DNA from: Bacteroidota bacterium
GTDB lineage: Bacteria; Bacteroidota; Ignavibacteria; UBA10030
Assembly: GCA_025454835.1 (NCBI GenBank)
Contig: JALONQ010000001.1
Span: forward strand, 62,001 to 126,000
DNA: 64,000 nt
Direction of reading: 5' to 3'
Shown: positions 17,592-36,306 of the stretch, in pieces
Layout: the number at the start of each line of letters is the position of its first letter
How positions within the stretch are numbered: position 1 is the stretch's first letter
The notes under the pieces: generated by a model
The model's database searches: none
What the model saw: the letters and a program-made list of their open reading frames with translations, nothing else
Told to the model about the DNA's origin: nothing
Made by a program: the position numbers and the translations under genes

Positions 17592-18447
17592 TATTGTAGT
17601 TCTTGTACTCCCCGATGCGGTGCCCAGTGGCATCCTCAATGCTATCGAGAAGCCGATTCTTCATCGAAGAACGGGCCCGTTTTGGGTCGTAGTCGAAGAC
17701 CCAGTCTCTCTTCCGTATCCGCTCCGCCATAACGAGGGGATGGGTTCCCTGGAAGGGGCGCAGCCTTCCTCCATCCGCATACGAGTAAACTTCCTGATCT
17801 CCCACCGTCCGTCTGACCCATTCGTCGGGGTGCCAGAAGCGGTGAAAACTCTTCTGCTTCTCCTGCTGAGCTCGCGGCGGTTTGACCCAGCCGTAGTGGA
17901 ACACACGCGCATTCGATTTGAGGACGTTCAGCTTCTTTCCGTCTCGTCGAAATCCCTGCGCGTCCCCCCACGACCTGATGCCGATGTTGTTCCTTATGAG
18001 CCGGATCTCCCGACGATACCACTTCCTGGAATGCCCCGCCCAGTCATAGCTTCCGTAGAAGTGAACGTAGTCGAACAGGATGCCTTCAATGCTTGACAGA
18101 GGGTGGGCTAAGTGCAATGAAGACCGGATAATTGCAGTGTCGTCCTCATGCAGCACCTCGTCCCCCTGAAGGTAAAACGCCCAGTCTCCGTTGACGTGAT
18201 CCAACGCCAAGTTGGTCTGCTGGGCCAGAATGGCACCTCCTTGGCGCAAGCCGTCATCCCAAACCGTATCGAAGACTCTGATCTTTGGAGAGTTGAGCGA
18301 AAGGACGGCTTGACGCGTTTCATCGGCCGAGTCGCCCACGGCAACGATGAGTTCGTCGACGAGAGGCAGGAGGGAGAGGATAGATTCCCGGAACGGATAG
18401 TCGAATTTGATCCCGTTCCGAATGAAGGTGAAACCGCTGACGGTCAT
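17581..18447 (-). CDS. Family 2 glycosyltransferase
   Basis: The 288-residue GT2 starts MTVSGFTFIRNGIKFDYP and carries DELIVAVGDSADETRQ and FYLQGDEVLHEDD in place of the standard DxD region (GDE). There is no membrane helix. Base composition looks lower in GC than its neighbours, hinting at transfer. It overlaps the thioredoxin-like gene start-to-stop (ATGA) and is the last gene of a seven-gene operon. It may decorate LPS, since the LPS operon ends against it, or a surface protein. Confidence 0.85.
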   Translation of the reverse strand: MTVSGFTFIRNGIKFDYPFRESILSLLPLVDELIVAVGDSADETRQAVLSLNSPKIRVFDTVWDDGLRQGGAILAQQTNLALDHVNGDWAFYLQGDEVLHEDDTAIIRSSLHLAHPLSSIEGILFDYVHFYGSYDWAGHSRKWYRREIRLIRNNIGIRSWGDAQGFRRDGKKLNVLKSNARVFHYGWVKPPRAQQEKQKSFHRFWHPDEWVRRTVGDQEVYSYADGGRLRPFQGTHPLVMAERIRKRDWVFDYDPKRARSSMKNRLLDSIEDATGHRIGEYKNYNIIR

Positions 18448-18968
18448 CCGCCCGATTGGTTCAAGTAGCTTCGGAAATCCGTGACCTTGTAGTGGTTTCC
18501 CGAGAAGAACGTCAGGATCTTGACGAAACGCTCCGGAGGGGCGTATCCAGGGACCACCGTGATCGGCTGTAGATCCTCATCGATGAACAGCGTCGACGGA
18601 TACCCCGTCACGCCAACGGCCTTCGCGAACTCCGCCGATGTCATGGTCTGCCCGTTGAAGGTCACAGGGTCGGACGATTCTGCGTTCAACTTAATGGCGA
18701 TATAGTTCCCCTTAAGCTCGCTTGAAACCATGGGGTTGGGATAGGTGTCCGCATCCATCTTCTTACACCACGTGCACCAGTCCGTGTAGAGGTCGACAAG
18801 GATCTTCTTGTTCTGTTCCTTTGCCAACTTCATGCCCTCGTCGAAAGGCGTCCAGCCAACCTCGGTTGTAGCAATTCCAGCAGCGGGATCATCGCTCAGG
18901 AACCAGCCGAACGCGATGAAGACCAATAGACCGGCAATACCCAGGGGAACGGCGAACTTGCTGCGCAT
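18444..18968 (-). CDS. Membrane-anchored thioredoxin-like protein (CTWC)
   Basis: I start at ATG 18968, preceded by AGAGAG, giving 174 residues; the track start adds 12 residues with no support. An N-terminal anchor (IAGLLVFIAFGWFL) precedes a thioredoxin fold with VDLYTDWCTWCKKMD (CXXC) and GYPSTLFIDED (cis-Pro). Such proteins act in the periplasm as disulfide reductants or in cytochrome/surface-protein maturation. It sits downstream of two PorV-like genes and a type IX cargo gene, which suggests a role in envelope protein folding. Confidence 0.88.
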   Translation of the reverse strand: MRSKFAVPLGIAGLLVFIAFGWFLSDDPAAGIATTEVGWTPFDEGMKLAKEQNKKILVDLYTDWCTWCKKMDADTYPNPMVSSELKGNYIAIKLNAESSDPVTFNGQTMTSAEFAKAVGVTGYPSTLFIDEDLQPITVVPGYAPPERFVKILTFFSGNHYKVTDFRSYLNQSGG

Positions 18969-18987
18969 CGTCCAACTCTCTCTGTTG

Positions 18988-19881
18988 TTAGAATGACAAT
19001 CCAAAGGTCACGACCTGGGCCGTTCCCAGTCCTGACGAGAAGGGTACCAGGGCGTATTCGAAGCCGATTCCACGATAGAGCGCCGTGAGACCGAAAGAGA
19101 GATTTCGGGCCGTGTCGCCCGACCTCCACGAGGCACGCAACCCCGCAAGTTGCTGGAACATGATCGTCCCGCCCACGGTCAGGCCCGACTCGTCGTGGTT
19201 CAATCCTGTCCGGAACGCCAGAGCGGGTCGAAGTTCGAAATGCCCCATCGTGACTTTGTAGCCGGCGCCGAGCCGGACCGTGGAAGGAAGCTCCACGGCC
19301 TCCGTCCTGAAGGCCGACATGGCGCCGAGATTGACAGCCGAAAGGCCCAGAACAAGGTCCTGAACAGGCGTTTCAGCCATCACGCCGGCATCGACCGAGA
19401 ATCCAGTGCTCTCGTTCAGATAGAGCTTCTCATACAGATACGATGCAGACAAGCCAGCAACGATTCCTTCGATGACCTCATTGGCCCAACCCGCTTGGAA
19501 GGCAGCGGTCTGAGCGTCAAAGGTGCCGATTGCAGGGCCGGGTGATTCACGCACTTCGATGCCCGGAATGCGCGTGATCGCAACAGCCGCCGAAAATCGC
19601 CCGACCGCAGTAGGAAAGGAAAGCCCCAGACGTTGCCCAGAGATTTCCTGGACCCAGGAAGTGTGAGTGAAGGCGATCGCTGTTGTCGGATCCGACGAGA
19701 ACATCGAAGCCGGATTGACGCCCGCAGCCTCCAAGCGGCCCGGCTCAACGACCGAAAGGTCGGTCAACGAAGCGGTCAGCGCGTGTTGCGGCAGCTTGAG
19801 GACCGAGGCGCCTGTGGAGTTCCCTTGCGCTGACAGAAGGGCCGGCAAGAGCAGAGGTAGGATAGAGTGCTTGATCTTCAT
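18988..19881 (-). CDS. PorV/UPF0164-like outer-membrane beta-barrel protein
   Basis: The start is set at ATG 19881 (MKIKHSILPLLLPALLSAQG), which gives a proper signal peptide and a 4-nt overlap with the upstream stop. The mature part has alternating amphipathic strands and the family landmark AAGVNPASMF. The last residues (QVVTFGLSF) end in F, as in outer-membrane barrels. Related PorV/PorQ proteins take part in type IX secretion and attachment. Confidence 0.78.
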   Translation of the reverse strand: MKIKHSILPLLLPALLSAQGNSTGASVLKLPQHALTASLTDLSVVEPGRLEAAGVNPASMFSSDPTTAIAFTHTSWVQEISGQRLGLSFPTAVGRFSAAVAITRIPGIEVRESPGPAIGTFDAQTAAFQAGWANEVIEGIVAGLSASYLYEKLYLNESTGFSVDAGVMAETPVQDLVLGLSAVNLGAMSAFRTEAVELPSTVRLGAGYKVTMGHFELRPALAFRTGLNHDESGLTVGGTIMFQQLAGLRASWRSGDTARNLSFGLTALYRGIGFEYALVPFSSGLGTAQVVTFGLSF

Positions 19882-20825
19882 TCGCGGATGTGCAGTCCGA
19901 TCGTCAGAATGTGAGCGCCGCCCGGTGAATACGGTTCGAGCACGAAGGCATAGTGAAATGATGGATTCCACGTGATCCCGGTGTTCTCGACGGCCGCCCC
20001 CGCCGACCAGCGGAGCCCATACGCTCCACTGGGGTCGAGGGCATCCACGCCTGTGCGGACTCGGACCATCGGGTGAACGATCGCATCCAGGCCGCCCCGG
20101 AACAACCAGCCACCCGCGGAAGACTCAGCTTCGACCGCCAAGGAGAACGGCGCCTCCCTCGGGGCGTAGGCGACGGCGAAAACGGACCGAACAGGGAAGA
20201 TATCCGTGGTTTGGCGCCCTTGTCGGCCATAGACCGGCGATGAATCCCATCGGTATTTCGAATTCAGGTCGCGAAAGACGGCTGCCACGAGCCAATCAGT
20301 GTTCAGAAGATACGCAGCCCCGACGTCAAGTCCAACGGTCGTGCTCGTGAGTCCTTCGACCATTTGTGCATACAACAGTTTTGCCGTGATCCCGAACGTG
20401 AACGTCGGTGCTGTCCGCAACCCAAACGAAAGCGATACCAGGTTCTCTGCGACGCTTAGGTCTCCCGAGGGGATCCCGTTTCGATCTCGTCCGTCGATCC
20501 CGGTCACAGAAATCCGATGAAGGGTGAAGGCGACACCCGCCGCCGGCGGAAGAGGAGTGCCATAGGAGATCGTCTGGATGGAACGGTCAAGCGGGAACAT
20601 CCCGGCCCCGAGCGAAACGGTTGGCGCCCTCTGGAATGGGGCCAGCGCAGGATTCATGAAGACATCGGGGTCGTTCAAGGGAAGGGCGGCCCGGGCGTTC
20701 CCGAGCGAGGCGCTCTCAGCCGTCTGACCAAGTCGAAAAGCCGCGCCGGCACGCCCGCCAAGCGAGGGTTGTGCTGCAAGGGCAATGGGAAGTGCGAGCG
20801 CGAGAGTGAGCACAAGGCGTCTCAT
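19878..20825 (-). CDS. PorV/UPF0164-like outer-membrane protein
   Basis: Start chosen at ATG 20825 (MRRLVLTLALALPIALAAQP), a clean signal peptide overlapping the upstream stop by 4 nt. The 315-residue protein has the family motif AESASLGNARAALPLNDPDV followed by FMNPA and many predicted beta strands. It pairs with the next gene. Together with the upstream type IX-sorted protein it may form an outer-membrane receptor or shuttle, which is inference. Confidence 0.8.
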   Translation of the reverse strand: MRRLVLTLALALPIALAAQPSLGGRAGAAFRLGQTAESASLGNARAALPLNDPDVFMNPALAPFQRAPTVSLGAGMFPLDRSIQTISYGTPLPPAAGVAFTLHRISVTGIDGRDRNGIPSGDLSVAENLVSLSFGLRTAPTFTFGITAKLLYAQMVEGLTSTTVGLDVGAAYLLNTDWLVAAVFRDLNSKYRWDSSPVYGRQGRQTTDIFPVRSVFAVAYAPREAPFSLAVEAESSAGGWLFRGGLDAIVHPMVRVRTGVDALDPSGAYGLRWSAGAAVENTGITWNPSFHYAFVLEPYSPGGAHILTIGLHIRE

Positions 20826-22354
20826 TGGAGCACGACCACCTTTCCCCACACTGATTCGGCGGACCCGATCGAGACCCGAACAAAGTAGACGCCATTCGCC
20901 ACGAGTGATCCTGCATCCGTTTTGCCGTCCCACACCTCGTCGTGTTGCCCTTCAGGCCGCTGTGCACCTCGCACCAGATCGCGCACCGGCTGCATCGCGA
21001 TGTCGAAGATCCTGATCGTCACCGTTGCGCCTCCCGTTGGAACGGCAAAATGGACGCGCGAAGGCTCGATCGCAGGTGAAAAAGGATTTGGATAGACGTA
21101 CATCTCACGCGCAACTGCCACGGGCTGGAAGGCCCTGAGAACCGACCACGTGGTCCCGAAGGGGGCGCCCGATACGTCGGGGGTGAGTGCAAGTCCATCG
21201 GGGCCGCCCAGCCAAACGGTGTCGCGACGGATGTCGACCGTGATCGCTTCAGCTGAGACGATGCGCTGATACGTGGCAGCGTCAACCATGGAACCGCTCA
21301 GTCTCCACGTCGCTCCTCCGTCAGAGGTGCGATAAAGCCCGGCATCGGTTGGGACGTACACAATAGAATCGCGGACTGCGATGTTGTGGGCAAATTCGCC
21401 AAGCAAACCGGTTCGCCATGAACCACCGTCATCAGAGCTCCAGCTGATCCCTCGCTGTTCCTCGCCCGACTCGGCATTCACCGTGGCCGCCCAGATCGTC
21501 TTCACACCGGCCCAACGTTGCTCCCGAAGCGCGACGACGAAATTTCCCGAGATGGGACGCGCCTGGTTGGTGCGTGAGAATTTCACCCAAGAAGATCCCC
21601 CGTCGGTCGATCGGTTGATGCCGCCGGCCGTTCCGACCCACACATATCCGTTCCCGTCCACCATCACGGAGAAGACGCGATGATTCAGGTTGCCGCGCAG
21701 TCCTAGCCTTCCGCCGGTGGGGGCGAGGTCAAAGTCCAGCGTATCGGTGGGGGCGATGGAAGAGCGGCCGTCGGGCGGCAGGATGATCCGTGGCCACGTG
21801 ACGCCATCATCCGTGGAACGGCGCAGCATGCCCGCGAAGTTCGCCGTCCAGACGCCACCGGCGCCGATGGCGATATCGTAGGTGATATTGTTGATCGGCG
21901 TCGTGATGTTCAACGCTGCGATCCGGTTGACTCCGTACGTCAGTGTGTCAACCGACCCCACATCCACGGGCTGGACCTGACGTACCCACGTGGATCCCCG
22001 ATCCGTCGATCGATAGAGGCCGTCACCGGTCGGCAGGGACTCGTTGTCCTGCTTCGTCGACGTGGCCGCCGAAACCCATAAGAGATCGCCTCGCACGGCG
22101 ATGCCTGAAATACCTGTGCCGCCGAACGGCGCCACGCCCGACCAATTAGTCCATCGCACGGGCGACCCGATCGCTGCGGAAAGCCCCCGCGACGTCCCCA
22201 CCCACACCGTGTCGCCCGACACGACGATCTCGTTGATCGAATTGGCCGTTAGTCGATCGCTCTCGGGAGGCATGGCGTCGATTCGGAAGGTGCGAAGCGG
22301 CTGCGAAACGGCGCCGGACGTCGCTGCAACGACGAGGATGATCATCCACCTCAT
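20822..22354 (-). CDS. Secreted BNR/beta-propeller protein with type IX (FlgD-like) sorting domain
   Basis: The 510-residue protein has an N-terminal signal peptide (MRWMIILVVAATSGAVSQP), repeated BNR/Asp-box units (STDRGSTWVRQVQ, STDGGSSWVKFS, TSDGGATWRLSG) expected to fold as a beta-propeller, and a C-terminal FlgD-like domain starting YPNPFSP and ending GVYFVRVSIG...KVVVLQ. That C-terminal domain is the type A sorting signal of the type IX secretion system. Expected location is the cell surface or medium. The ligand is unknown. Confidence 0.88.
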   Translation of the reverse strand: MRWMIILVVAATSGAVSQPLRTFRIDAMPPESDRLTANSINEIVVSGDTVWVGTSRGLSAAIGSPVRWTNWSGVAPFGGTGISGIAVRGDLLWVSAATSTKQDNESLPTGDGLYRSTDRGSTWVRQVQPVDVGSVDTLTYGVNRIAALNITTPINNITYDIAIGAGGVWTANFAGMLRRSTDDGVTWPRIILPPDGRSSIAPTDTLDFDLAPTGGRLGLRGNLNHRVFSVMVDGNGYVWVGTAGGINRSTDGGSSWVKFSRTNQARPISGNFVVALREQRWAGVKTIWAATVNAESGEEQRGISWSSDDGGSWRTGLLGEFAHNIAVRDSIVYVPTDAGLYRTSDGGATWRLSGSMVDAATYQRIVSAEAITVDIRRDTVWLGGPDGLALTPDVSGAPFGTTWSVLRAFQPVAVAREMYVYPNPFSPAIEPSRVHFAVPTGGATVTIRIFDIAMQPVRDLVRGAQRPEGQHDEVWDGKTDAGSLVANGVYFVRVSIGSAESVWGKVVVLQ

Positions 22355-23190
22355 GGGAGGACCTCGACGCGATGGATGACGATGTTGCTCGAGTCCGAAG
22401 ACCGATCGATCGCGCGAAATTCGAATCGATAGGTTCCCGTCGGTGCGCCGCCGAATTGCACGCGCAGGCTGTAGACACTGTCGCGGGCCAGGGCATCGCC
22501 GCTGATCCCAGCCGAATTGCCGTCGTCGAACATCAGGAACGGATTACCGCTGGCCGGAAGTCCATTCGGTCGGTAAGAGTTGAAGTAGACGCGCAGAATG
22601 TCCGAGGGGCCGTCGGGGTCCACAGCCTTGATCTGGAGGAGCATCAGCGGCTGCGGGTCTGACGCTGAGATCGTGGCATCGGCGACGAGCGACGACATGA
22701 TCGGCGGGCGGTTGTTGCGAACGACCGTCAGCGGAATGACCGCAATGGTGCTGCGCATGCCGTTGACGCCCGTAGCGGCCACTCGGGCCGACCAGCTTCC
22801 GATCTCGACGCGGGTGATCGACAATCGCACATAGCCGCTGAACGTCCCATCGCCCGACAAGAGATCTGGAGCCACGCCGCCGTCATTGAAGGGGGTCGGT
22901 CCGCTCACGACGAGGCCCCGGTCGTCGACGATCCACCCCGTGACCTGTCCGACCGGCGACGATCCACCGGCCGATTGCACCACCGCGGAGAACGCGATCG
23001 GGATGCTGAGCCGATCAGTTGGCTGGCGCGTGCTGCCGACGTTGATCGTATCGCTGTCCACCGTCACGGCGGTTGGGGTCAACGATACGACCGCTGGTGC
23101 CGCGGCGAGCGCATCGAGCGGTCCCTCCGGCTCGGGCGAACAGGACAATCCCGCGAGCAACAATGACAAGCTGAGAAAGGAATGGCGCAT
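22351..23190 (-). CDS. Surface lipoprotein with Ig-like domains
   Basis: The 279-residue protein starts with a signal peptide ending in a lipobox-like LLAGLSC followed by SPEPEG. The rest is beta-rich with choice-of-anchor/Ig-like features (SGDGTFSGYVRLSITRVEIG; LLQIKAVDPDGPSDI). No catalytic motif is seen. It is 6 nt from the M50 protease gene and overlaps the type IX cargo gene by 4 nt. It is probably a cell-surface adhesin-like or structural lipoprotein. Confidence 0.7.
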   Translation of the reverse strand: MRHSFLSLSLLLAGLSCSPEPEGPLDALAAAPAVVSLTPTAVTVDSDTINVGSTRQPTDRLSIPIAFSAVVQSAGGSSPVGQVTGWIVDDRGLVVSGPTPFNDGGVAPDLLSGDGTFSGYVRLSITRVEIGSWSARVAATGVNGMRSTIAVIPLTVVRNNRPPIMSSLVADATISASDPQPLMLLQIKAVDPDGPSDILRVYFNSYRPNGLPASGNPFLMFDDGNSAGISGDALARDSVYSLRVQFGGAPTGTYRFEFRAIDRSSDSSNIVIHRVEVLP

Positions 23191-23196
23191 CCGCCC

Positions 23197-24258
23197 TCAG
23201 GGGAGAGAAACGATGATCGGATTCGGGGAGAACGTCAGCACGAAGATCCCGAAGGTGGCCCACCCGACCCACTTCCTGCGCTCATCCAAAGGTGATTCAT
23301 CAGGAACGGGAGGGTGGTACAGCTTGACGATGACCAGCGCGATGATGGCCCAGACGAACCATGCCGACCAGCTGTGCTCCGCGAACGGAACGATCTGAGG
23401 CTGTTCCTCGCCTGTGGCCCACGTCAAGAGCAGACGCAAGATCGCATCGGACATGGCCGGGGCCGAAAGACCCAGAAGGGCGTAGAACGTCGCTCGCGCG
23501 ATCGGCTTGTGGCGCTCTCCGAACATGGCATAGATAACATGGCCGCCGTCGAACTGCCCCAACGGGATCAGGTTCAAGGCCGTGACGAAGAGACCGAACC
23601 ATCCGGCACAAAGGAAAGGATAATGATAGATCTCGCTCATCGGTGGAACAAAATCCCCCGGCTGCGTCAGAATGCCTCTCAGGATCGCCAGCAGCAGCGT
23701 ATCGCCAAAGGCCAGCCCCATCCCCTCTGAGTTCCGAATGGAATTGGTCGTGAAATCGTAGTCAGGATGGATCGACAGCAAATAGTCCGCCGGCGGAAGA
23801 TTCACATACCCATACACCAGAACGCCAATGCTCGCAATGAAACCGGCGATCGGACCGGCAACGCCGATATCGAAGATGGCTTTCCGCGAGGGAACGATCG
23901 AACGCGTGCGGATGATGGCGCCAAAGGTCCCGAAATTCAAGAAGAGGTACGAAAGTGGAGGGATGGTCGGGAAAGGAATATAGTAGGGGAGCGATGTGTC
24001 GACGCCATGAGCACGGGCGGCGAAGTAGTGGCCGAACTCATGCGCCGTCAGGATGAACATCACAGAGAAGGCGTAGGGAAACCCGACCGACAGGTACTCA
24101 AGGTCGAAGGCGACTTCGGGATAGATCCAGATGATCCCTGAAACCGTGGTCGTCAGAAAGGTGATGACGAAGAGGAACGCATGGAGCCACAAGCGGCGTG
24201 GAGCGGCTATCTCCCGCCGCCAGGAAGAGTCAACAGGTGGCTCGAACGGTTCATTCAT
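23197..24258 (-). CDS. Site-2-protease-family (M50B) membrane metalloprotease
   Basis: I place the start at ATG 24258, 12 nt after the -7 box; the track start at 24309 precedes the promoter. The 353-residue protein has several membrane segments, the zinc motif HEFGHYFAAR and the second M50 motif LNLIPLGQFDGGHVIYA. These proteases cleave substrates within the membrane, often anti-sigma factors. First gene of the seven-gene minus-strand operon. Its substrate is unknown. Confidence 0.92.
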   Translation of the reverse strand: MNEPFEPPVDSSWRREIAAPRRLWLHAFLFVITFLTTTVSGIIWIYPEVAFDLEYLSVGFPYAFSVMFILTAHEFGHYFAARAHGVDTSLPYYIPFPTIPPLSYLFLNFGTFGAIIRTRSIVPSRKAIFDIGVAGPIAGFIASIGVLVYGYVNLPPADYLLSIHPDYDFTTNSIRNSEGMGLAFGDTLLLAILRGILTQPGDFVPPMSEIYHYPFLCAGWFGLFVTALNLIPLGQFDGGHVIYAMFGERHKPIARATFYALLGLSAPAMSDAILRLLLTWATGEEQPQIVPFAEHSWSAWFVWAIIALVIVKLYHPPVPDESPLDERRKWVGWATFGIFVLTFSPNPIIVSLP

Positions 24259-24324: not shown

Positions 24325-25917
24325 CTAGGCGTTGAACCAGACCGGGCTCGTGAGGCAGTGATGGGGTCGTTGGTCGCGATGGCCGGGGTGCGTGGCGATC
24401 TCGAGTCGAAGATAATGTGGACGGTGGTCCGTCACATCGTATCGCCACGCCCAATACATCTCGCCCGGCGACTCCCAGACCTGCAACGTCTCTTCGGCCG
24501 CGGACCCGATGATCCCCCTTTTCAATTCGATCCTGTGAAGGCGGCCGAACTCATCCGAGGTGCGCGCGATCAGCCGCAACGTCGTCGGGGCCTTCAGCGT
24601 GGACCCGATCACTTGACGGCCGTCGATGTCCGAGACCATGGCGACGGGACCATCGGTCGCGATCGAGCGATGGAGTCGTATCGCTTCGAGCAGTGCCGGT
24701 AGAGCGCTCGATTCCGCAAAGAGGCCCGTTCGTACGCGTCCGAACAGTTGATGATCGGCCTCACGAAGGCGAACGAACGGGATCGACAGCTGCCGGAAAC
24801 GGTTGAAGTTGCCATGCGCATCGTTCCCGGCAAGGACCGCGATCCGTCGGCCACGAAGGAGTTGTTGCGCCCATGCATCCCGCCCCGCCTTGCATCGCTC
24901 GTCGAAGGACCCGTTCCAGAATTGGAGGGCATGAAGTCCCGGCTGCCCCTCGTCTTTCTGGGACCAAGAGCCTCGGCGCAACAACCATCGCTGGATCAAC
25001 GGGACATGCTCCCGCGGATGCGCACCCGCCACGATCGCGGATGGATCGACCCGGTCCAGCAGCTCTCGAAGAGACAATTCGCTCCTGGTGCGAAGCCATC
25101 GTTCGGCGCTATCGCCCGACCCCGGATGGAACTGGCGGTCGCCGAGGACCAGACAATGGATGTTCTGTCCTGCTTCGTTGCGACAGGAGACCTCTTCTCC
25201 CGGGATGAGCGAAAATCCCGGCTGCCGATTCAACTCGGCGATCTCCCGCTGCAGCGCATGCCATTTTGGCAAATCGGGATCGTTCACGAGATAGGACGAG
25301 GCAGCATCGTCCAGATCGTACGAGTGATCGGTCATGGTCGCGAACTGCAGGCCCATGCGTCGTGCCAGGCCGCGAGCGGCGCCGGGCGGTACGCCAAATT
25401 CGACCTGGTCCTCGGTCGCCGTCGAATGCGCATGGCCTTCGCCGAGCATCAGTTGAGGGAGCGAGGGAAGCGGTTCCGGGCTGACATACACGCGCAACGG
25501 CGCGTGTGAACTCGTGCGATAGTTGTCGCTGAACGCCCGCCGCGCCCCCCGGCCCGCATCGTAGTCGAACTGGACGATGCACGAGATCCATCCGCTCAGA
25601 TCATCGATCGGCACGTCGACGATCGTCCACCACCAATGCTCCGCGATCTTCACGGAGGATCGGAGCAAGGAGACCTCGCGCGTCGACACGCCGTCCGAAA
25701 CGCGGGCCGTGACGCCGTGGAGCATGACGGGATGACGATCTGCGTCCTTGACCAGCACGAGAACCGGCAGAGGCTCGCCGGGTTCGAGGCGGTGAGGCGC
25801 ATCAGCCAGGATCTCGGGTTCCGGCGCGTTCAGGAGGCTGAAGAAATACCTGAAGCGATAATGGACCTCCGCGTAGAACGGCGCCAGCGGCGGAACAACG
25901 AAGGGCAGGACGATCAT
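24325..25917 (-). CDS. Membrane-anchored PHP-domain metal-dependent hydrolase
   Basis: ATG 25917 overlaps the upstream stop (TGATG); an alternative ATG at 25938 adds seven residues. The 530-residue protein starts with a hydrophobic segment, continues with a beta-sandwich region (to about 165) and then a PHP phosphoesterase domain: GEGHAHSTAT, MTDHSYDL, IPGEEVSC, AGAHPREH and AGNDAHGNF give a full set of metal ligands. PHP enzymes hydrolyse phosphoesters. It ends an operon of membrane glycosyltransferases, so a phosphate-containing glycolipid or polysaccharide substrate is possible. Confidence 0.82.
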   Translation of the reverse strand: MIVLPFVVPPLAPFYAEVHYRFRYFFSLLNAPEPEILADAPHRLEPGEPLPVLVLVKDADRHPVMLHGVTARVSDGVSTREVSLLRSSVKIAEHWWWTIVDVPIDDLSGWISCIVQFDYDAGRGARRAFSDNYRTSSHAPLRVYVSPEPLPSLPQLMLGEGHAHSTATEDQVEFGVPPGAARGLARRMGLQFATMTDHSYDLDDAASSYLVNDPDLPKWHALQREIAELNRQPGFSLIPGEEVSCRNEAGQNIHCLVLGDRQFHPGSGDSAERWLRTRSELSLRELLDRVDPSAIVAGAHPREHVPLIQRWLLRRGSWSQKDEGQPGLHALQFWNGSFDERCKAGRDAWAQQLLRGRRIAVLAGNDAHGNFNRFRQLSIPFVRLREADHQLFGRVRTGLFAESSALPALLEAIRLHRSIATDGPVAMVSDIDGRQVIGSTLKAPTTLRLIARTSDEFGRLHRIELKRGIIGSAAEETLQVWESPGEMYWAWRYDVTDHRPHYLRLEIATHPGHRDQRPHHCLTSPVWFNA

Positions 25918-27011
25918 CAGTACTGCCGTCCTTTCCATCGCACCGGACCGCCCAACAGCACGACGACGGGAAGCGCGACGACGTAGAGTGCGAAGTACAG
26001 CTCGAACCAGAAGAAGTGCCGAAGGTCATCGAGGCGACCGAGCCGCTTCAGGACCTGGGCGAGAAGAACGTAGTCAGCCGTCGCTTTTACGAACAAGACG
26101 GTGAGCGTGTGCCACCACGCGCCCCAGACCAGCGTGTGAATGAGCGGGAGGAAATGAACGCTCCAACCGATCGCCATGATCACGAAGCCGATGAACGGCA
26201 CGTCGAGCCCCCCACGACCCCAACGAAGCTTCTGATGGAAGAGAGCGCGAACATCGGGACAGGGATCGCTCTCGACGAGAAGCCGCGCGTCGATGGGATA
26301 GCGTTGCTGCCATCGGCCCGACGAACGGATCGCATGCACCAGCGTGTAGTCTTCCGTGACGCTGAACGGAAGCGAATCGTATCCGCCCACCTCGTCGTAG
26401 GCCCTCTTCCGGAACGAGAGGTTGTTCCCGATGCTTCCGAACGAGCGCCCGAGCGCGACGCTGGCAGCCGCGACGCCCAACAGGTAGGCCCAGTCAAGCG
26501 ATTGCATCCCTCCGAACGACGTATGGGCCCGCTGAAGCGTGATGCCCCCGACCAGCCCGACGTCAGGCTCGTACTGACCCGCCGTCGCTTCGACCCAAGT
26601 GGGGGGAACACGACAGTCCGCGTCGGTAATCAGGATGACCTCACCGCGCGCTTGAGCGATGCCCGCCGACAGCGGTCGCGCTTTTCCCTTCAGGCGGCTC
26701 AGCGGCGATGAATGCACGAGTCGCAACTGCACGTGGTCCGGCATGCGGCCCCTCACGACCTCGGCAGTCAGGTCCGTAGAATCGTCGTCGACGACGATGA
26801 CCTCATAGCGATCCGCAGGAAAGGTCTGCCGACAGAGAGCGTCGACGCACGCACCGATCGAGGCCTCCTCGTTGCGTGCGGCAACGACGATCGACACGGT
26901 CGGTCGCGCGCCTGTCGTGATCGGCGGGATGCGGGTCAGTCCAACGACGACGATCGCCGTCTGCAGGAGATACAGGGCGAGGACGATCAGGATGAAGGTC
27001 GCGAGGTCCAT
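25917..27011 (-). CDS. Membrane family 2 glycosyltransferase
   Basis: The 364-residue protein has an N-terminal membrane helix, a GT2 domain (VSIVVAARNEEASIGACVDAL; VVDDDSTDLT; LITDADCRVPP), the processive-type region QKLRWGRGGLD, and about three C-terminal helices. This architecture (GT2 with terminal membrane helices) occurs in enzymes making membrane-bound glycans or glycolipids. It is separated from the preceding GT2 by 3 nt. Sugar and acceptor are unknown. Confidence 0.9.
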   Translation of the reverse strand: MDLATFILIVLALYLLQTAIVVVGLTRIPPITTGARPTVSIVVAARNEEASIGACVDALCRQTFPADRYEVIVVDDDSTDLTAEVVRGRMPDHVQLRLVHSSPLSRLKGKARPLSAGIAQARGEVILITDADCRVPPTWVEATAGQYEPDVGLVGGITLQRAHTSFGGMQSLDWAYLLGVAAASVALGRSFGSIGNNLSFRKRAYDEVGGYDSLPFSVTEDYTLVHAIRSSGRWQQRYPIDARLLVESDPCPDVRALFHQKLRWGRGGLDVPFIGFVIMAIGWSVHFLPLIHTLVWGAWWHTLTVLFVKATADYVLLAQVLKRLGRLDDLRHFFWFELYFALYVVALPVVVLLGGPVRWKGRQY

Positions 27012-27014
27012 AGG

Positions 27015-28136
27015 TCAGCGTCGAAGGGTGCGGTCCTTCCATCGGAATGGCACGACAAGGCTCAGCACGGTGGCGATCACGATCGAGAAAGGATGAAAGA
27101 GCTCGGCCAACGCCACCTCGGACCATCGCCGCTCGATCCCCCAAGCGCGCATGACCGTGAGCAACGGGAGCAGGTCAACCGCGATCTTGATGCACCAAGC
27201 ATTCACGACCGCCGGTATCAGCTCAGGGATCCAGAACGAGATCACGGTCGCTCCTATCAGTGTCGCGAAGAACACGAACAACAGCACCAGCTCCAGATAG
27301 ATCGTCGGGTCAAGAAATCGGCCTGCGACGGCCGCCCAGCGGCGCCTCTGCCGGAAGAACGCTCGCAGAGAACCCTGAGCCGGGGTCGTGACCATGGCGC
27401 CGAGGTCGTAGGCGAACGCCACCGAACCCAGCGACCTCGTGACGATGCGGCTCATGAGCGTTCCGTCGTCATTCGACGATCGTTGAACGTTCTCCTGTGC
27501 TCGAAGATACGCGTCGCGACGGTAGGCCAGATTGGCGCCGTTGCAGATGATCGGTCGTCCAGATCCGATCGACCCGGCTCCAGAAACGACCAAGCCGAGG
27601 AAATCGAGTCGCTCCACGCGTCCGAAGAGGCCTCCCCCGGCCTTGAGGACGACGGGACCCGCCACCAGCGCCGTACCGGGGGAAAAATACGAAACCATCG
27701 TGTTGACCCATGTCGGCGGATGTTCGCAATCGGCGTCGGTCGTGATGACGATCTCAGCGGCGGACTGCTCAACGCCGGCCCGGATGGCCTCCGGTTTGCC
27801 GCCAACACCCGTCTCAGGGCGGGGTGGCAGTGAAACGAGCGTGATGCGGGGTTGTTCGGCGCTGACCCGTCTGACGATCTCCGCCGTCGCGTCGGTCGAG
27901 GCGTCGTCCACCACGATGATCTGCAGCGCATGCGCGGGAAGATCCTGTGCCAAGACCGATCGGAGGCATGCCTCGATGGAGGATGCCTCATTCCGGGCGG
28001 CGATGACCACGGCAGCGCGCAGGGGAGAACCGCCCCGAGGCTGATGCCGCAGGCGCGACACCCCGACATACACCCGAAGCACGAAGAAGACGTAGAACCC
28101 GGTCAGGACGACAAGGGCGCCGCCGAAGATCGTCAT
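27015..28136 (-). CDS. Membrane family 2 glycosyltransferase
   Basis: Start ATG 28136 (MTIFGGALVVLTGFYVFFVL) overlaps the upstream stop by 4 nt; the track start at 28178 is spurious. GT2 motifs are AAVVIAARNEASSIEACLRS, IIVVDDASTDATAE and ITTDADCEHPP, with a downstream FFRQRRRWAAVAG (QRRRW-like) motif and C-terminal helices. It is a paralogue of its two operon neighbours. Confidence 0.9.
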   Translation of the reverse strand: MTIFGGALVVLTGFYVFFVLRVYVGVSRLRHQPRGGSPLRAAVVIAARNEASSIEACLRSVLAQDLPAHALQIIVVDDASTDATAEIVRRVSAEQPRITLVSLPPRPETGVGGKPEAIRAGVEQSAAEIVITTDADCEHPPTWVNTMVSYFSPGTALVAGPVVLKAGGGLFGRVERLDFLGLVVSGAGSIGSGRPIICNGANLAYRRDAYLRAQENVQRSSNDDGTLMSRIVTRSLGSVAFAYDLGAMVTTPAQGSLRAFFRQRRRWAAVAGRFLDPTIYLELVLLFVFFATLIGATVISFWIPELIPAVVNAWCIKIAVDLLPLLTVMRAWGIERRWSEVALAELFHPFSIVIATVLSLVVPFRWKDRTLRR

Positions 28137-29065
28137 CTCTGCACCCTGCGATCGGCGAGGAAGACGGCGAGGCCGCACATCGTCGGCAGCAGCACGTTGA
28201 CGGCGAACATGAGGAGCGACACCGCCAGCGCTGGCGCCGCGCCGATGCCGTAGTAGCCGAAGAACGCTATGTGCGAAGCCTCACGGATCCCCAGGTCCAT
28301 GATGAAAACCGGAGCCAGTGTGCGCAGACCGATGCCCGCCCAGAAACCGTTCCACGTCTCGACGATCCCGAGACTCGCCACGGCGTTCAACAAGACATAC
28401 TCCTGGACGACATACACCAGAAGAATGCATGCCGTCCAGCCCATGGCTTGCAGCAGACCCCTGCGCGGGATGGCACTGAATGCCTGCAACGCTGTGTCGA
28501 CCCTTCGTAACCGTTGCCATCGGCCAGCCAGTTGCAGACGCGCGAACCGATGATGACCGAACGCCAGACCGACCACGATCGATATCATGACGACGAGAGA
28601 AAGAACAGACCACCACGCATGGTGCGTGACCATGAGGACTAGCGCGGGCACACCGGGAACCAACGCCAGGAGACTGTGCGTCAACTTCTCGAGGACGACC
28701 ACCCCGGCCACGCGTTCGCTCGACAGTTCATAGTGGCGGTGCATGCGGTACGCAACGTCGCCGACCTCCGCCGGAGTGACGACGGCGAAGGCGTATCCGG
28801 CCATGATCGTCTTTGCCACGCGCACCATGGAGGCGTCAGAGCCCGCATGACGCAAGAGGTGTTGCCATCGGAGCATGCGGAAACCGATCTGAAAGGGGAG
28901 CAGAAGCAACGCCGCTCCTACCGCCGTCCAACTCACCGACTGCCAGGCTCCCAGGAGGTCGCGCCATGAGATCGACATGAAGACCGCCGCCAGAACAAGC
29001 AGGCTCAGCGCCCACTTGATCAGCGTCCCTTTCCAACGGCTCCAGAACGTGATCCGGTCGCTCAT
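28133..29065 (-). CDS. Flippase-like membrane protein (LPG_synthase_TM/UPF0104 family)
   Basis: The start is ATG 29065 (MSDRITFWSRWKGTLIKWALS), overlapping the upstream stop by 4 nt; the track ORF begins far upstream inside the GT2 gene. The 310-residue protein has about eight membrane helices and the family region LLPFQIGFRMLRWQHLL, TPAEVGDVAYRMHRHY. Relatives are the membrane domain of MprF and AglD-type proteins, thought to flip lipids or lipid-linked sugars. Between membrane GT2 genes it may translocate their product. Confidence 0.83.
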   Translation of the reverse strand: MSDRITFWSRWKGTLIKWALSLLVLAAVFMSISWRDLLGAWQSVSWTAVGAALLLLPFQIGFRMLRWQHLLRHAGSDASMVRVAKTIMAGYAFAVVTPAEVGDVAYRMHRHYELSSERVAGVVVLEKLTHSLLALVPGVPALVLMVTHHAWWSVLSLVVMISIVVGLAFGHHRFARLQLAGRWQRLRRVDTALQAFSAIPRRGLLQAMGWTACILLVYVVQEYVLLNAVASLGIVETWNGFWAGIGLRTLAPVFIMDLGIREASHIAFFGYYGIGAAPALAVSLLMFAVNVLLPTMCGLAVFLADRRVQR

Positions 29066-30207
29066 CGCGCGAAGGTCGATCCTTTCCATTGGATCCGCGA
29101 GAGCCATCCAAGGGGCCCCACGATGATGACATACGCAACGTTCACGATCTCGAGCGGCAGGAACCAGGTCCACGCTCGTGCACGGCCAAAGCGAAGGTCG
29201 CCCAAAGCACAGAGGAACAGATCGGCGCACATCTTGATCACATACGCCGTCAGGAATCCATGTCCCGGCAAGGCGACAGCGGCGAGCAGGGCGCACGTCG
29301 CGAAAGCGTTCGTCCCATGATACACGGCGAGCCACGACTGGCTCCAAAGGTCGTACCATCGGCCGGCGGACAGATGACGCGTTCGCTGGCGATAGAGTTC
29401 CCGCCATGTTTCTGGAACCTCGGTGACCACGGTGGCTTCCGGAGACGGCATGGAGATGATCCGCCACGACGTCTGTCTGCGGATGCGCTGGACGAAGAGG
29501 TCGTCGTCGCCGCTGATCGATTCGTGTTGACCGGCGAAGCCTCCGACCCCGTCATACACGCTCCTTCGATAGGCAAGGTTGGAACCACTTGCCGTCCAAG
29601 CGAATCCAAGCCCGATCGAACCCGCCGAGAGGACCCCCGTTTTGTACTTCTCGTACTCGATGAAGCGGCGAAGGACCGATCCCAGCAGCGTTGTCGCGGT
29701 TCCGTCAGCGAAGGGAGTGTAGAATCCCACGGCCACGCCCACGTCAGGGCCCATCGCACGTTCGAGCGACTGAAGCCATGCAGGAGGGGGCGCCGTGTCG
29801 GCATCCGTGAAGCAGAGGATCGATCCGGTACTCGACGTGATACCGCATTCCAAGGCATGCTTCTTTGGGGCCGTGCCACTCGGGAGACGGTCGACCCGCA
29901 CGCATCGCAGCATCGGAAGCCGCTGTCGGTAACTGGCTACGACGTCCGCCGTCCCGTCGTCAGAACGGTCGTCGACCACGACGATCTCGTCGGGACGACG
30001 AACCTGTCGGGTCAGAGATTCGAGCGCCAAGCCGATGCGTTTCGCTTCATTGCGCGCGGCGATGATCACGCTCATACGCTCCGTTCCGCCGGGGCTCGTG
30101 GACGTCCGGCGAAAGAGGCCGGCGAGCACCACCAGATGGAGCGCCGCATAGACGGTGGCGGCCCCGATGGCGATCGACGCAAGAAGGGGAAGGTGGTCCG
30201 AGAACAT
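29062..30207 (-). CDS. Membrane family 2 glycosyltransferase
   Basis: The 381-residue protein has an N-terminal helix, GT2 motifs MSVIIAARNEAKRIGLALES, IVVVDDRSDDGTADVVAS and LCFTDADTAPP, a QRTRHLSAGRW region (QxxRW-like) and C-terminal membrane helices. It is the first gene of the five-gene minus-strand operon and diverges from udk. No promoter of the shared type is clear in the 99-nt divergent spacer. Confidence 0.9.
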   Translation of the reverse strand: MFSDHLPLLASIAIGAATVYAALHLVVLAGLFRRTSTSPGGTERMSVIIAARNEAKRIGLALESLTRQVRRPDEIVVVDDRSDDGTADVVASYRQRLPMLRCVRVDRLPSGTAPKKHALECGITSSTGSILCFTDADTAPPPAWLQSLERAMGPDVGVAVGFYTPFADGTATTLLGSVLRRFIEYEKYKTGVLSAGSIGLGFAWTASGSNLAYRRSVYDGVGGFAGQHESISGDDDLFVQRIRRQTSWRIISMPSPEATVVTEVPETWRELYRQRTRHLSAGRWYDLWSQSWLAVYHGTNAFATCALLAAVALPGHGFLTAYVIKMCADLFLCALGDLRFGRARAWTWFLPLEIVNVAYVIIVGPLGWLSRIQWKGSTFAR

Positions 30208-30306: not shown

Positions 30307-30924
30307 ATGAAACCCCTCGTTATCGGCGTCGCCGGAGGCAGCGGTTCCGGCAAGACCTCCGTCACCAACAAGATCCTCGAGCAGCTCGACGCTTCGCGCG
30401 TCCTGATCATTCAACATGATTCATACTACCGGGACCTCTCGACGTACGGTGGAGCCACTCCCGGTGAGATCAACTTCGACCATCCCGATTCGCTCGAGAC
30501 CTCACTCCTCGTAGAACACATCGGGACACTGCGAAAAGGGCAGAGGGTCGAGGTGCCCATGTACAACTTCGCGACCCACCGACGAATGGCCGAGACCCAA
30601 AGCAAGGCCCCTCATGACATTATCATCATCGACGGGATCCTGCTCTTCGTCGACGAAGCCTTGCGCGAACTGCTGGACATCCGCATCTATGTCGACACCG
30701 ACGCAGATGAGCGCCTGATCCGGCGCATCAAGCGGGACATCCTGGAGCGCGGCAGGTCTTTGGAATCTGTCATGCACCAGTATCTGGACACCGTGAAGCC
30801 GATGCACCTGCAGTTCGTCGAGCCGAGCAAGCATTGGGCAGATGTCATTATCCCGCGAGGTGCGGAGAATGCCGTTGCCATCGACATGGTCGTGACCAAG
30901 ATCAACGCCTTGTTGAATCGATGA
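30307..30924 (+). CDS. udk: Uridine kinase
   Basis: ATG 30307 gives 205 residues, the family length; the 611-residue track ORF is an open extension antisense to the GT2 gene. The P-loop VAGGSGSGKTSVTNKI, the uridine-binding QHDSYYRDLS and NFDHPDSLETSLL, and the lid region VDTDADERLIRRIKRD are intact. It phosphorylates uridine/cytidine in pyrimidine salvage. A weak TTT/TATATTC box pair lies about 33 nt upstream of ATG. It is followed by a terminator. Confidence 0.96.
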   Translation: MKPLVIGVAGGSGSGKTSVTNKILEQLDASRVLIIQHDSYYRDLSTYGGATPGEINFDHPDSLETSLLVEHIGTLRKGQRVEVPMYNFATHRRMAETQSKAPHDIIIIDGILLFVDEALRELLDIRIYVDTDADERLIRRIKRDILERGRSLESVMHQYLDTVKPMHLQFVEPSKHWADVIIPRGAENAVAIDMVVTKINALLNR

Positions 30925-30931
30925 CCGGGCA

Positions 30932-30962
30932 CCCGGAAGTTGGCAGTGAACCGGGCTTTTTG
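30932..30962 (+). terminator. Probable intrinsic terminator after udk
   Basis: CCCGG and CCGGG form a short 5-bp GC stem around a 14-nt loop and are followed by C and six T. Modest stem, but well placed between udk and the next promoter. Confidence 0.6.
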
Positions 30963-30963
30963 T

Positions 30964-30993
30964 TGCGAATACGTCAAATTTCGGTTATGTTTT
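30964..30993 (+). promoter_or_regulatory. Putative Bacteroidota-type promoter for the M16 peptidase/nuo operon
   Basis: TTG at 30964 and TATGTTT at 30987 have the 23-nt spacing. The region is clearly AT-rich compared with its surroundings. Confidence 0.6.
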
Positions 30994-31072
30994 AATAAGT
31001 TCCTTCAAACCACGACGGTATCTGTCCGTGGCTTCGTCTCATGTCGGCCTTCAACGAACACCCACAGCGCCC

Positions 31073-32365
31073 ATGCAGTATCGGAACCGCACGGCAACAG
31101 CGGATCGTGTCACCTCGAATTACCGAAAGACCGTTCTTTCGAATGGGGTCCGGATCGTGTCCGAGGAGATCCCCTTTGTACGCTCGGTCTCTGTGGGTCT
31201 CTGGGTCGATTCGGGCTCGCGCGACGAACCCGCAGCCCTGAACGGCATTTCGCATTTTCTTGAGCACATGGTGTTCAAGGGGACCGATCGCCGAAGCATC
31301 ACGGATATCGCGCGGAGCCTCGAGTCGGTCGGCGGCTATCTCAACGCGTTCACGGGCAAGGAACACACGTGCTACTATGCCCGCGCCCTCGACGAGCACC
31401 TGCCGCTCGCGCTTGACGTCACTGCCGACCTGTTGCTACACGCCACATTCCCGGCCAAAGAGCTTGAGAAGGAAAAGGGCGTGGTGATCGAGGAGTTACG
31501 GAACGTCGAGGACGATCCGGACGACCTCATCCACGACATCACCGAGCGCGAGGTCTTTGGACGGCATCCTCTTGGCATGCCGGTGATCGGCACCGAGCGG
31601 ACGGTCCGCGCGTTCTCCCGCAACGATCTGACGGCGCATCGCGAGCAGATCTACACCCCGGACCGGATCGTCGTGGCTGCCGCTGGCCGGTTGAAACACG
31701 ACGAGCTTGTTCGGCTCGTGGAAAGATCGCTCGGTGGACTCAAGGCGTCTCGCCGACCGGCCCGTCGTGCCAAGCCGCAGCGTCAGCGCGGCAGAGAGGT
31801 CCGGCAATCGAAGCCGATCCAACAGGCCCATCTGTGCTTGGGCACCGTCGGATACAGCGTGCATCAACGACAACGCTTTCCGATGCTCGTGATGAACACG
31901 TTGCTGGGTGACGGCATGAGTTCGCGCCTCTTCCAGTCCATTCGGGAACGGCGCGGGTTCGCCTATACGGTCTACAGCTACGCGAACACCATGACGGATA
32001 CAGGAACATTCGGCGTCTATGCCGGGCTCGATGCGACGAATGTTGAGCGCGTTCGCGATCTGGTCTGGAGCGAATTCACCTCCTTGCGAACCAAACCGGT
32101 GCCTGCGGCCGAACTTCGTCGCACGAAGGACCAGCTCAAGGGGAGCATGATGCTCAACCTCGAGAGCATACCGAATCGAATGATGCGTCTCGGCGGGTCG
32201 GAGCTTTCCCTCGGGAGACTCCCGTCGCTCGAAGCGGTGCTCGAGTCGATCGATGCCGTTACCGCGGCCGACATCCAACGGGTCGCCGAGTCCCTGTTCC
32301 GACCCGAGCGGTTCGCTACGGTGATCCTCGAACCGTCGGGCAGCGCCCCGAAAGAAAGACCATGA
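31073..32365 (+). CDS. M16 family zinc peptidase (processing-peptidase/pitrilysin-like)
   Basis: ATG 31073 gives 430 residues and places YRKTVLSNGVRIVSEEIP near the N-terminus as in the family; GTG 31028 is an alternative. The inverted zinc motif HFLEHMVFKGT and the downstream EELRNVEDDPDDL glutamate are present, so this is the catalytic half. The C-terminal half contains RRGFAYTVYSYANTMTDTG, a substrate-binding landmark. Similar to bacterial PqqL/mitochondrial processing peptidase-like proteins. It overlaps the aminotransferase by 4 nt. Confidence 0.93.
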   Translation: MQYRNRTATADRVTSNYRKTVLSNGVRIVSEEIPFVRSVSVGLWVDSGSRDEPAALNGISHFLEHMVFKGTDRRSITDIARSLESVGGYLNAFTGKEHTCYYARALDEHLPLALDVTADLLLHATFPAKELEKEKGVVIEELRNVEDDPDDLIHDITEREVFGRHPLGMPVIGTERTVRAFSRNDLTAHREQIYTPDRIVVAAAGRLKHDELVRLVERSLGGLKASRRPARRAKPQRQRGREVRQSKPIQQAHLCLGTVGYSVHQRQRFPMLVMNTLLGDGMSSRLFQSIRERRGFAYTVYSYANTMTDTGTFGVYAGLDATNVERVRDLVWSEFTSLRTKPVPAAELRRTKDQLKGSMMLNLESIPNRMMRLGGSELSLGRLPSLEAVLESIDAVTAADIQRVAESLFRPERFATVILEPSGSAPKERP

Positions 32366-33591
32366 ACGAAATGCAGGCGCAGGAAACGCGTACCATTGTC
32401 GGGCTTTCCGAGCGAGCTCGCGTCATGCAGGCGTCGCCGCTCCGGAAACTCGCTGCCCTTGCCGAGCAACGCAAGAAAACCGGCATCAAGGTCTTTCATC
32501 TCAATATCGGGCAACCCGACCTGCCGACGGCCCCCGCCGTGTTCGAGGCGATGCGAGGCTTCGACCAGAAGACCCTTGCCTACGCGCCATCCAACGGCCT
32601 ACCCGTCGCGATCAACGCCTGGAAGAACTACCTGGGCCACCACGGCATCCACTTCGAGGAATCCGAGCTGATCGTGACAGCCGGCGGCTCCGAAGCGCTC
32701 ATCTTCGCCATGTGCGCCGTCGCCGACGCGGGTGAAGAGGTCGTCGTGTTCGAACCCTTCTACACCAACTACAACGGCTTCGCCACGATCGCAAACGTCC
32801 GACTCGTTCCCGTGCCGCTGTCGATCGAGAACGGGTTCCATCTTCCGCCGGAAGACATCATCGAGAGGGCGATCACGTCACGAACGAGGGCGATCCTCTT
32901 CTGCAATCCGTCCAACCCGACGGGAACGATCTACGGCCGCGACGAGGTCGAACGGCTGGTGCGCCTGGCCCTCAAGCACAACCTCTACATCATCTCGGAC
33001 GAGGTGTACCGCGAGTTCGCTTACGATGCCGATGCGATCAGCATCATGGGTTTCCCCGAGGTGGCCGACCGGGCGATCCTCTGCGACAGCTCCTCGAAAC
33101 GATTTAACGTGTGCGGCGCCCGTATCGGAGTGCTCGCCAGTCACCACAAGGGGGTCGTCGAGACGGCGCTGAAGTTCGGCATGGCCCGCCTTTCTGTCGC
33201 CACGGTGGAGCAGGTGGCGATCGCGCCGTTGCTCAACGATCCCGAGCCGTATGTGCGGCCGATCGTCGAGGAGTTTCGGCATCGGCGCGACGTCGTGGTC
33301 GAGGGACTGAGGACGATCCCGGGCGTCACGTCGTACAAACCGGAGGGGGCGTTCTACATCGTCATCGGACTTCCCGTCAAGGATGCCGAGCACTTCGCCC
33401 GGTGGCTCATCAACGATTTCGAGCTGAACGGGGAGACCGTATTGCTCGCCCCCGCAGCAGGATTCTACGCAACGCCCGGACAAGGGGCGAACGAGGCCCG
33501 CCTCGCTTTCATGCTGAAGGCTTCCGAGTTGAAGCGCTCAATCGACATTGTTCACGCAGCCCTGGGATCGTATGCCAAAGGTCACCATTGA
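32362..33591 (+). CDS. Class I/II PLP-dependent aminotransferase (aspartate aminotransferase-like)
   Basis: The 409-residue protein starts ATG in an ATGA overlap. Fold-type I features are NIGQPDLPTAP (substrate), LFCNPSNPTGTIY, IISDEVYREFAYD (PLP ring) and the Schiff-base lysine in DSSSKRFNVCGARIG. Closest in style to AspC/AspB 1-beta class enzymes. The substrate is probably an acidic or aromatic amino acid; this cannot be resolved here. It sits between a peptidase and nuo genes, a placement with no clear functional logic. Confidence 0.9.
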   Translation: MNEMQAQETRTIVGLSERARVMQASPLRKLAALAEQRKKTGIKVFHLNIGQPDLPTAPAVFEAMRGFDQKTLAYAPSNGLPVAINAWKNYLGHHGIHFEESELIVTAGGSEALIFAMCAVADAGEEVVVFEPFYTNYNGFATIANVRLVPVPLSIENGFHLPPEDIIERAITSRTRAILFCNPSNPTGTIYGRDEVERLVRLALKHNLYIISDEVYREFAYDADAISIMGFPEVADRAILCDSSSKRFNVCGARIGVLASHHKGVVETALKFGMARLSVATVEQVAIAPLLNDPEPYVRPIVEEFRHRRDVVVEGLRTIPGVTSYKPEGAFYIVIGLPVKDAEHFARWLINDFELNGETVLLAPAAGFYATPGQGANEARLAFMLKASELKRSIDIVHAALGSYAKGHH

Positions 33592-35260: not shown

Positions 35261-36298
35261 ATGGACCTTCTCGAACCCATCATTAAGATCGCCGTCGTCC
35301 TCGGTGCGCTCCTGACCGCGTCTGCGATCGTCGTTCTGTTCGATCGCAAGTTCAGCGCCTATATCCAGAATCGGTACGGGCCGAATCGTGTCGGCCCCGG
35401 TGGATGGATGCAATCGATCGCCGACGTCGTGAAGCTGGTGATGAAAGAGGATATCGTGCCCAAAGCCGCGAATCGGTTTGTGCATGACCTTGCGCCCATG
35501 ATCTCGATCACCGTCGCTCTCACAACGTTCGCGGTCATCCCGTTCGGCGACACGATCCCGCTCTTCGGCAAGGAGTACAACCTCATCATCGCAGACGTCA
35601 ACGTCGGCATCTTGTACATCCTCGCCATGACGGGCATGGGTGTCTACGGATTGACGTTGGCCGGCTGGTCCTCGAACAACAAGTATTCCCTCTTCGGCGG
35701 GTTGCGTTCGTCGGCGCAGCTCATCAGCTACGAGCTTTCAATGGGCCTGTCGCTCATCGGCGTGATCATGATCGCCGGCACCCTGCAGATCGACGACATC
35801 GTGCGCAGCCAGACCGGATATTGGTTTGGCTGGATACCGCAGTGGAACGTCATCTCGCAGCCGATCGGCTTCATCACCTTCTTCGTGGCGTCGTTCGCCG
35901 AGACCAACCGCCTCCCCTTTGACCTGCCCGAAGCCGAGCCGGAACTCGTCGGAGGATATCACACGGAGTACTCGGGAATGAAGTTCGGATTGTTCTTCCT
36001 GTCAGAGTACGCCAATATGATCGTGTCAAGCGCGCTCATCACGGCGCTCTTCCTCGGCGGCTGGCACCTCCCGTTCGCGGAGACCTGGGGCCTCGATCCC
36101 CTCGTCCTCGCGCTGCTGAAGATCGGCGCTTTCATGTTCAAGATGTTCATCATCATCAGCTTTTACGTCGTCATCCGCTGGACGCTTCCCCGTTTTCGTT
36201 ACGACCAGTTGATGAATCTTGGCTGGAAAGTGATGCTGCCCGTGTCCATCGCAAACGTCCTCGCCACCGGCGTGGTTATGCTCTGGCTTACGAGGTAA
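35261..36298 (+). CDS. nuoH: NADH-quinone oxidoreductase subunit H
   Basis: The 345-residue protein has about eight membrane helices and the conserved NuoH segments QNRYGPNRVGPGGWMQSIAD, FVASFAETNRLPFDLPEAE and EPELVGGYHTEYSGMKF. NuoH forms the quinone-binding chamber at the junction of the membrane and peripheral arms of complex I. It lies 3 nt after nuoG and 8 nt before nuoI. Confidence 0.97.
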   Translation: MDLLEPIIKIAVVLGALLTASAIVVLFDRKFSAYIQNRYGPNRVGPGGWMQSIADVVKLVMKEDIVPKAANRFVHDLAPMISITVALTTFAVIPFGDTIPLFGKEYNLIIADVNVGILYILAMTGMGVYGLTLAGWSSNNKYSLFGGLRSSAQLISYELSMGLSLIGVIMIAGTLQIDDIVRSQTGYWFGWIPQWNVISQPIGFITFFVASFAETNRLPFDLPEAEPELVGGYHTEYSGMKFGLFFLSEYANMIVSSALITALFLGGWHLPFAETWGLDPLVLALLKIGAFMFKMFIIISFYVVIRWTLPRFRYDQLMNLGWKVMLPVSIANVLATGVVMLWLTR

Positions 36299-36306
36299 GG
36301 TGACGC

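Follow-up and report, generated by a model that had tools for sequence, protein, structure and literature searches.

Five translationally coupled genes on the minus strand of an uncultured, Ignavibacteria-like Bacteroidota genome encode three membrane glycosyltransferases (GTs), a flippase-family protein and a metallohydrolase. The operon probably assembles an aminosugar membrane glycolipid on the cytoplasmic side and transports the product outward, following the logic of the HexSDF and GpgSDF systems. A role in glycolipid assembly and flipping is well supported by conserved gene neighbourhoods, by the full-length similarity of one glycosyltransferase (GTc) to ceramide glucosyltransferase (UGCG) and by the parallel with HexSDF and GpgSDF, and this part of the sequence-only reading is retained; the trimming step that it added to synthesis and flipping has found no evidence. 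On our best reading, the gene set would be a multi-step relative of the synthase-deacetylase-flippase design, elaborated with extra GTs and a PHP hydrolase.

Layout of the operon

The open reading frames (ORFs) span positions 24325-30207 (minus strand) of the window, by which we mean the whole 64,000-nucleotide stretch of DNA analysed. All five were recovered at the following coordinates:

29062..30207, minus strand: GTa, membrane GT2 glycosyltransferase, 381 aa (PF00535, 79 bits)
28133..29065, minus strand: flippase of the MprF/AglD/YbhN family (LPG_synthase_TM), 310 aa (PF03706, 89.6 bits)
27015..28136, minus strand: GTb, membrane GT2 glycosyltransferase, 373 aa (PF00535, 85 bits)
27012..27014, minus strand: 3-nt gap between GTb and GTc, the site that holds NodB in relatives, with no NodB here (family comparison)
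25917..27011, minus strand: GTc, membrane GT2 resembling ceramide glucosyltransferase, 364 aa (PF00535, 87 bits; UGCG alignment)
24325..25917, minus strand: PHP/CehA-type metallohydrolase, 530 aa, or 537 aa if the start is at 25938 (NF038032, 70.5 bits)

Read from the sequence, the GTa/flippase and flippase/GTb junctions are ATGA overlaps (29062-29065 and 28133-28136, respectively). GTc and PHP meet at a TGATG with an in-frame ATG at 25917, and an alternative ATG lies upstream at 25938. The five coupled genes and all their junctions are as the sequence-only reading had described them. Position 24325 is no sharp end of the set; an M50 peptidase gene and more same-strand genes follow closely downstream.

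These downstream genes (17581-24258, minus strand) encode the M50 peptidase, a choice-of-anchor X protein, a beta-propeller-like protein with a FlgD-like C-terminus, two outer-membrane-like proteins, a thioredoxin and a GT2-like protein, and are mostly syntenic throughout the family. Between PHP and M50, many relatives (L034, L036 and L040 among them) carry an NtrC-like gene on the opposite strand together with a gene for a membrane protein, and both also occur in families f2/f6 (L185, L188). On the other side, a udk-like kinase gene and two M16 peptidase-like genes (30340-33591, plus strand) diverge from the operon and adjoin it throughout the family. Further along, genes for an NADH dehydrogenase subunit (PF00146) and a 4Fe-4S protein (35261-36807, plus strand) are probably part of a nuo operon.

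Glycosyltransferases, flippase and PHP hydrolase

Each GT2 carries helices at both termini by hydropathy, in agreement with the earlier description. The catalytic motifs are intact (TDAD, GDDD and QRxRH in GTa), and in GTb the motif patterns fitted most, not all, of the aligned rows. A GT tree places the enzymes in three position-specific clades, whose sisters are genes from KSB1, Calditrichota and Zixibacteria that lie in PHP clusters: GTa forms a single clade (support 99/97), GTb falls in the orthologous clade b, and clade c groups with PHP-adjacent genes of KSB1 and Calditrichota (100/100). Only GTc has a full-length match in the Protein Data Bank (PDB), its profile positions 9-365 aligning with UGCG (26qf; E 2.8e-18) with the C-terminal membrane part included, whereas GTa and GTb match over the GT core only. 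UGCG belongs to GT21, and GTc differs from it in being bacterial and in sitting in a multi-GT operon. The acceptor of GTc is predicted to be a lipid.

Ceramide was considered as that lipid. A candidate ceramide locus of the window's genome (L194:8376-11917) contains SDR, serine-palmitoyltransferase-like (SPT) and GNAT genes. The best match of the SPT, NF047600, scores 463 bits against an NCBIfam cut-off of 640, and SPT-like genes are present throughout the order, so ceramide is one candidate acceptor only. A hopanoid role was rejected: GTc matches nearly the whole length of the model for HpnI of the bacteriohopanetetrol glucosamine pathway (TIGR03472), but at 92 bits it lies far under the cut-off of 310, and no PF13243 match to squalene-hopene cyclase was found in the window's genome.

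The flippase scores well above the PF03706 cut-off of 33.4 bits and has at least six membrane helices by hydropathy, which bears out its earlier assignment as an LPG_synthase_TM/AglD-like membrane protein; its motifs are conserved in 14 aligned sequences. AglD-type flippases have a predicted role in archaeal glycosylation pathways (PMC5898192), and the AlphaFold model of GTc (mean pLDDT 92.4) has a fold like those of hyaluronan and cellulose synthases. Both observations favour a different product, a lipid-linked oligosaccharide or capsule-like surface glycan, for which the GTs would lengthen a polyprenyl-phosphate-linked sugar, the PF03706 protein would flip it and a Wzi protein would anchor the polymer. 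We regard this as rather unlikely, since the sole full-length PDB match of GTc is to ceramide glucosyltransferase and the recurrent neighbours included no recognisable polymerase or oligosaccharyltransferase.

The nearest named family of the PHP protein is CehA_McbA (NF038032), for which its score falls under the curated cut-off of 80 bits, and a Pfam search matched no family. CehA is a carbaryl hydrolase. Across 17 aligned sequences, the metal ligands HxH (169/171), DH (204/205), H307 and DxH (373/375) never vary. In the AlphaFold model (mean pLDDT 84.7), beta-sandwich-like regions flank the PHP region on both sides; a fold search with this model was uninformative, returning mostly beta-sandwich matches at low TM-scores, and the PHP profile found nothing in the PDB but weak matches to X-family DNA polymerase. 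The protein had earlier been described as membrane-anchored with full metal ligands. The ligands stand, and the anchoring is unsupported because hydropathy gives no membrane helix; the N-terminus is hydrophobic and modelled there with low confidence. PHP probably acts inside the cell, and the proposal that it trims a glycan gained no support.

PHP might instead be a lipid phosphohydrolase that, like PlcP, frees a diacylglycerol or ceramide acceptor for the GTs. This would be compatible with glycolipid assembly and concerns the PHP step only. The complete metal-ligand set fits such an activity, as does the tight coupling of PHP to GTc in the window's family and in some KSB1 and Calditrichota lineages, and PlcP-glycosyltransferase operons offer a precedent (PMC4796936). 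We nevertheless consider it unlikely, because the CehA/McbA family takes its name from hydrolases of another kind and the related families f2, f3 and f6 carry a GTc homologue without PHP.

Conservation, the second locus and distribution across phyla

A PHP orthologue is present in 28 of the 32 family genomes, the window's included, and also in f5, of the same order; none was found in f2, f3, f4 or f6. Conservation of the five genes in other genomes had been suggested as a check, and the GTa-flippase-GTb-GTc-PHP order proved to be complete in 20 of the 28, cut by contig ends yet consistent in six and different in two. The gene set is also modular. Locus L053 has the operon without GTb and NodB, L035 keeps PHP alone without GTs and flippase, and f2, f3 and f6 have their GTc homologue at the same place; the last two observations count against our best reading. 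Orthology of the f2/f6 homologue is based on pairwise scores, by which that of f6 is slightly closer to a GTc paralogue (GTc′) than to GTc. The relatives are mostly fragmented metagenome-assembled genomes, so absences near contig ends carry little weight.

Comparison within the family adds a member to the five-gene set. In 18 of the 20 complete operons, GTb and GTc are separated by a NodB-type deacetylase gene (~205 aa); only the window and G001, of the same genus, lack it at this site. The NodB of the window's genome is at a second locus (G000:C15:12367-12720; L093:8164-8910), and in G000, G001 and G015 alike the gene stands outside the main operon beside Wzi and GTc′; in G015 this locus comprises GTb, NodB and GTc′ next to Wzi. 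Inspection and hydropathy of the NodB N-terminus revealed no signal peptide. The position of Wzi beside NodB and GTc′ in the window's genus and G015 would suit a surface glycan, and this second locus also supports our best reading. Wzi homologues are found in 36 of 41 relatives, mostly away from these genes, which counts against the surface-glycan alternative; in most family genomes Wzi does not adjoin NodB or GTc, an observation against our best reading. Wzi was rejected as an obligate partner, being located elsewhere in most relatives.

Beyond the family, a scan of genome contigs identified 269 PHP relatives. The best 80 of these come from Ignavibacteria-like Bacteroidota, KSB1, Calditrichota, Neomarinimicrobiota, Zixibacteria, Latescibacterota and others, and their recurrent neighbours are GT2, NodB, flippase, GT28, radical SAM, DUF3108 and Wzi genes. 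When the best 80 were divided by hand from record titles, 41 loci fell outside the Bacteroidota-like set, with GT2 in 13, flippase in eight, NodB in four and Wzi (PF14052) in five, the last again agreeing with a surface glycan. In 28 of these 41, no GT2, NodB or flippase gene is in reach (some lie near contig ends), which counts against our best reading. In the PHP tree, GT linkage appears in the Bacteroidota-like clade and several other lineages, so it was either present in the ancestor and lost in places or acquired repeatedly. The PHP clusters L142, L159 and L166 of KSB1 and Zixibacteria also contain radical SAM and DUF3108 genes.

The genes could be unrelated neighbours held together by family-wide synteny, given that flanking genes without an evident lipid connection (udk, M16, M50 and beta-propeller) are equally syntenic in the family. 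We judge this very improbable. GT2-flippase-NodB-PHP linkage persists in KSB1, Calditrichota and Zixibacteria despite different flanks, whereas M50 is linked to PHP in 30 of 39 Bacteroidota-like loci and none of the 41 others (best 80 of 269). M50 was accordingly set aside as a functional partner and is probably a bystander, its linkage being confined to the Bacteroidota-like set. PHP and flippase also covary across 61 related genomes (33 with both, two with PHP only, none with flippase only and 26 with neither; flippase scored at E < 1e-6), in a count that ignores phylogeny and is inflated by shared ancestry. Chance association is excluded by the recurrence of the order throughout the family and of the linkage in different phyla.

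For the glycolipid pathway favoured here, the analysis shows gene content, linkage, orthology and intact catalytic motifs, and a putative order of steps and substrates can be outlined. GTc would add the first sugar, perhaps an N-acetylhexosamine, to a membrane lipid (ceramide or diacylglycerol), and NodB, from its second locus here, would take off the N-acetyl group. GTa and GTb may act as extenders that attach further sugars, and the PF03706 protein would flip the finished glycolipid, which a Wzi-like outer-membrane protein may receive in some lineages. PHP, with neither a signal peptide nor a clear helix, would act intracellularly on a lipid or sugar intermediate that carries a phosphate or ester group. 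If this is true, the aminosugar-lipid design, now including three GTs and a tightly linked hydrolase, reaches Ignavibacteria-like Bacteroidota, KSB1, Calditrichota and Zixibacteria, and provides a concrete gene set to match with as yet unassigned glycolipids from anoxic water and sediment. A bolder and quite doubtful extension is that PHP is a phosphohydrolase dedicated to the lipid acceptor and is coupled to a UGCG-like GT2 in an aminosugar glycolipid pathway found FCB-wide. The pair would then be the PHP-based equivalent of PlcP-Agt, and its product a lipid class to which no genes have so far been assigned in these phyla.

Comparison with known systems

Our search of the open-access literature returned no paper naming the window's gene combination. 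The earlier statement that no characterised pathway is known must be revised all the same, as HexSDF and GpgSDF share its core logic (PMC10128005, PMC12713373). In both systems the production of an N-deacetylated aminosugar lipid by GT and deacetylase has been tested, and the flippase step is unproven.

PlcP supplies acceptor lipid to glycolipid synthases in phosphate-starved marine bacteria, and in PlcP-Agt operons, as in the window, a phosphoesterase gene adjoins lipid glycosyltransferase genes (PMC4796936). PlcP and PHP are different proteins, and the available text describes no deacetylase or flippase in that pairing.

In Pseudomonas aeruginosa, GpgS, GpgD and GpgF are a GT, a deacetylase and an AglD2/YbhN flippase encoded in one operon, and their product is glucosaminyl-PG (PMC12713373). 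GpgS is predicted to be a cytoplasmic GT4 and GpgD belongs to the COG3233 deacetylases, in contrast to the membrane GT2s and NodB-type (PF01522) deacetylase of the window's genome.

HexSDF directs aminohexosyl-hexosyldiradylglycerol synthesis in Clostridioides difficile, where HexS is annotated as an MGDG synthase, HexD as a polysaccharide deacetylase and HexF as an MprF-like flippase (PMC10128005). The window differs in having three GT2s rather than one GT, an extra PHP hydrolase and NodB at a second locus; the part of the S-type enzyme would fall to GTc, a GT2, instead of a GT28, and a search made with no positive control found no GT28 elsewhere in the genome. The likeness, compared by annotation, lies in the combination of GT, polysaccharide deacetylase and MprF-like flippase, which HexSDF unites in one operon, and it is mirrored in the f5 relatives, whose GT28 (PF04101), NodB and PF03706 trio, found with PHP, matches the annotations of HexS, HexD and HexF.
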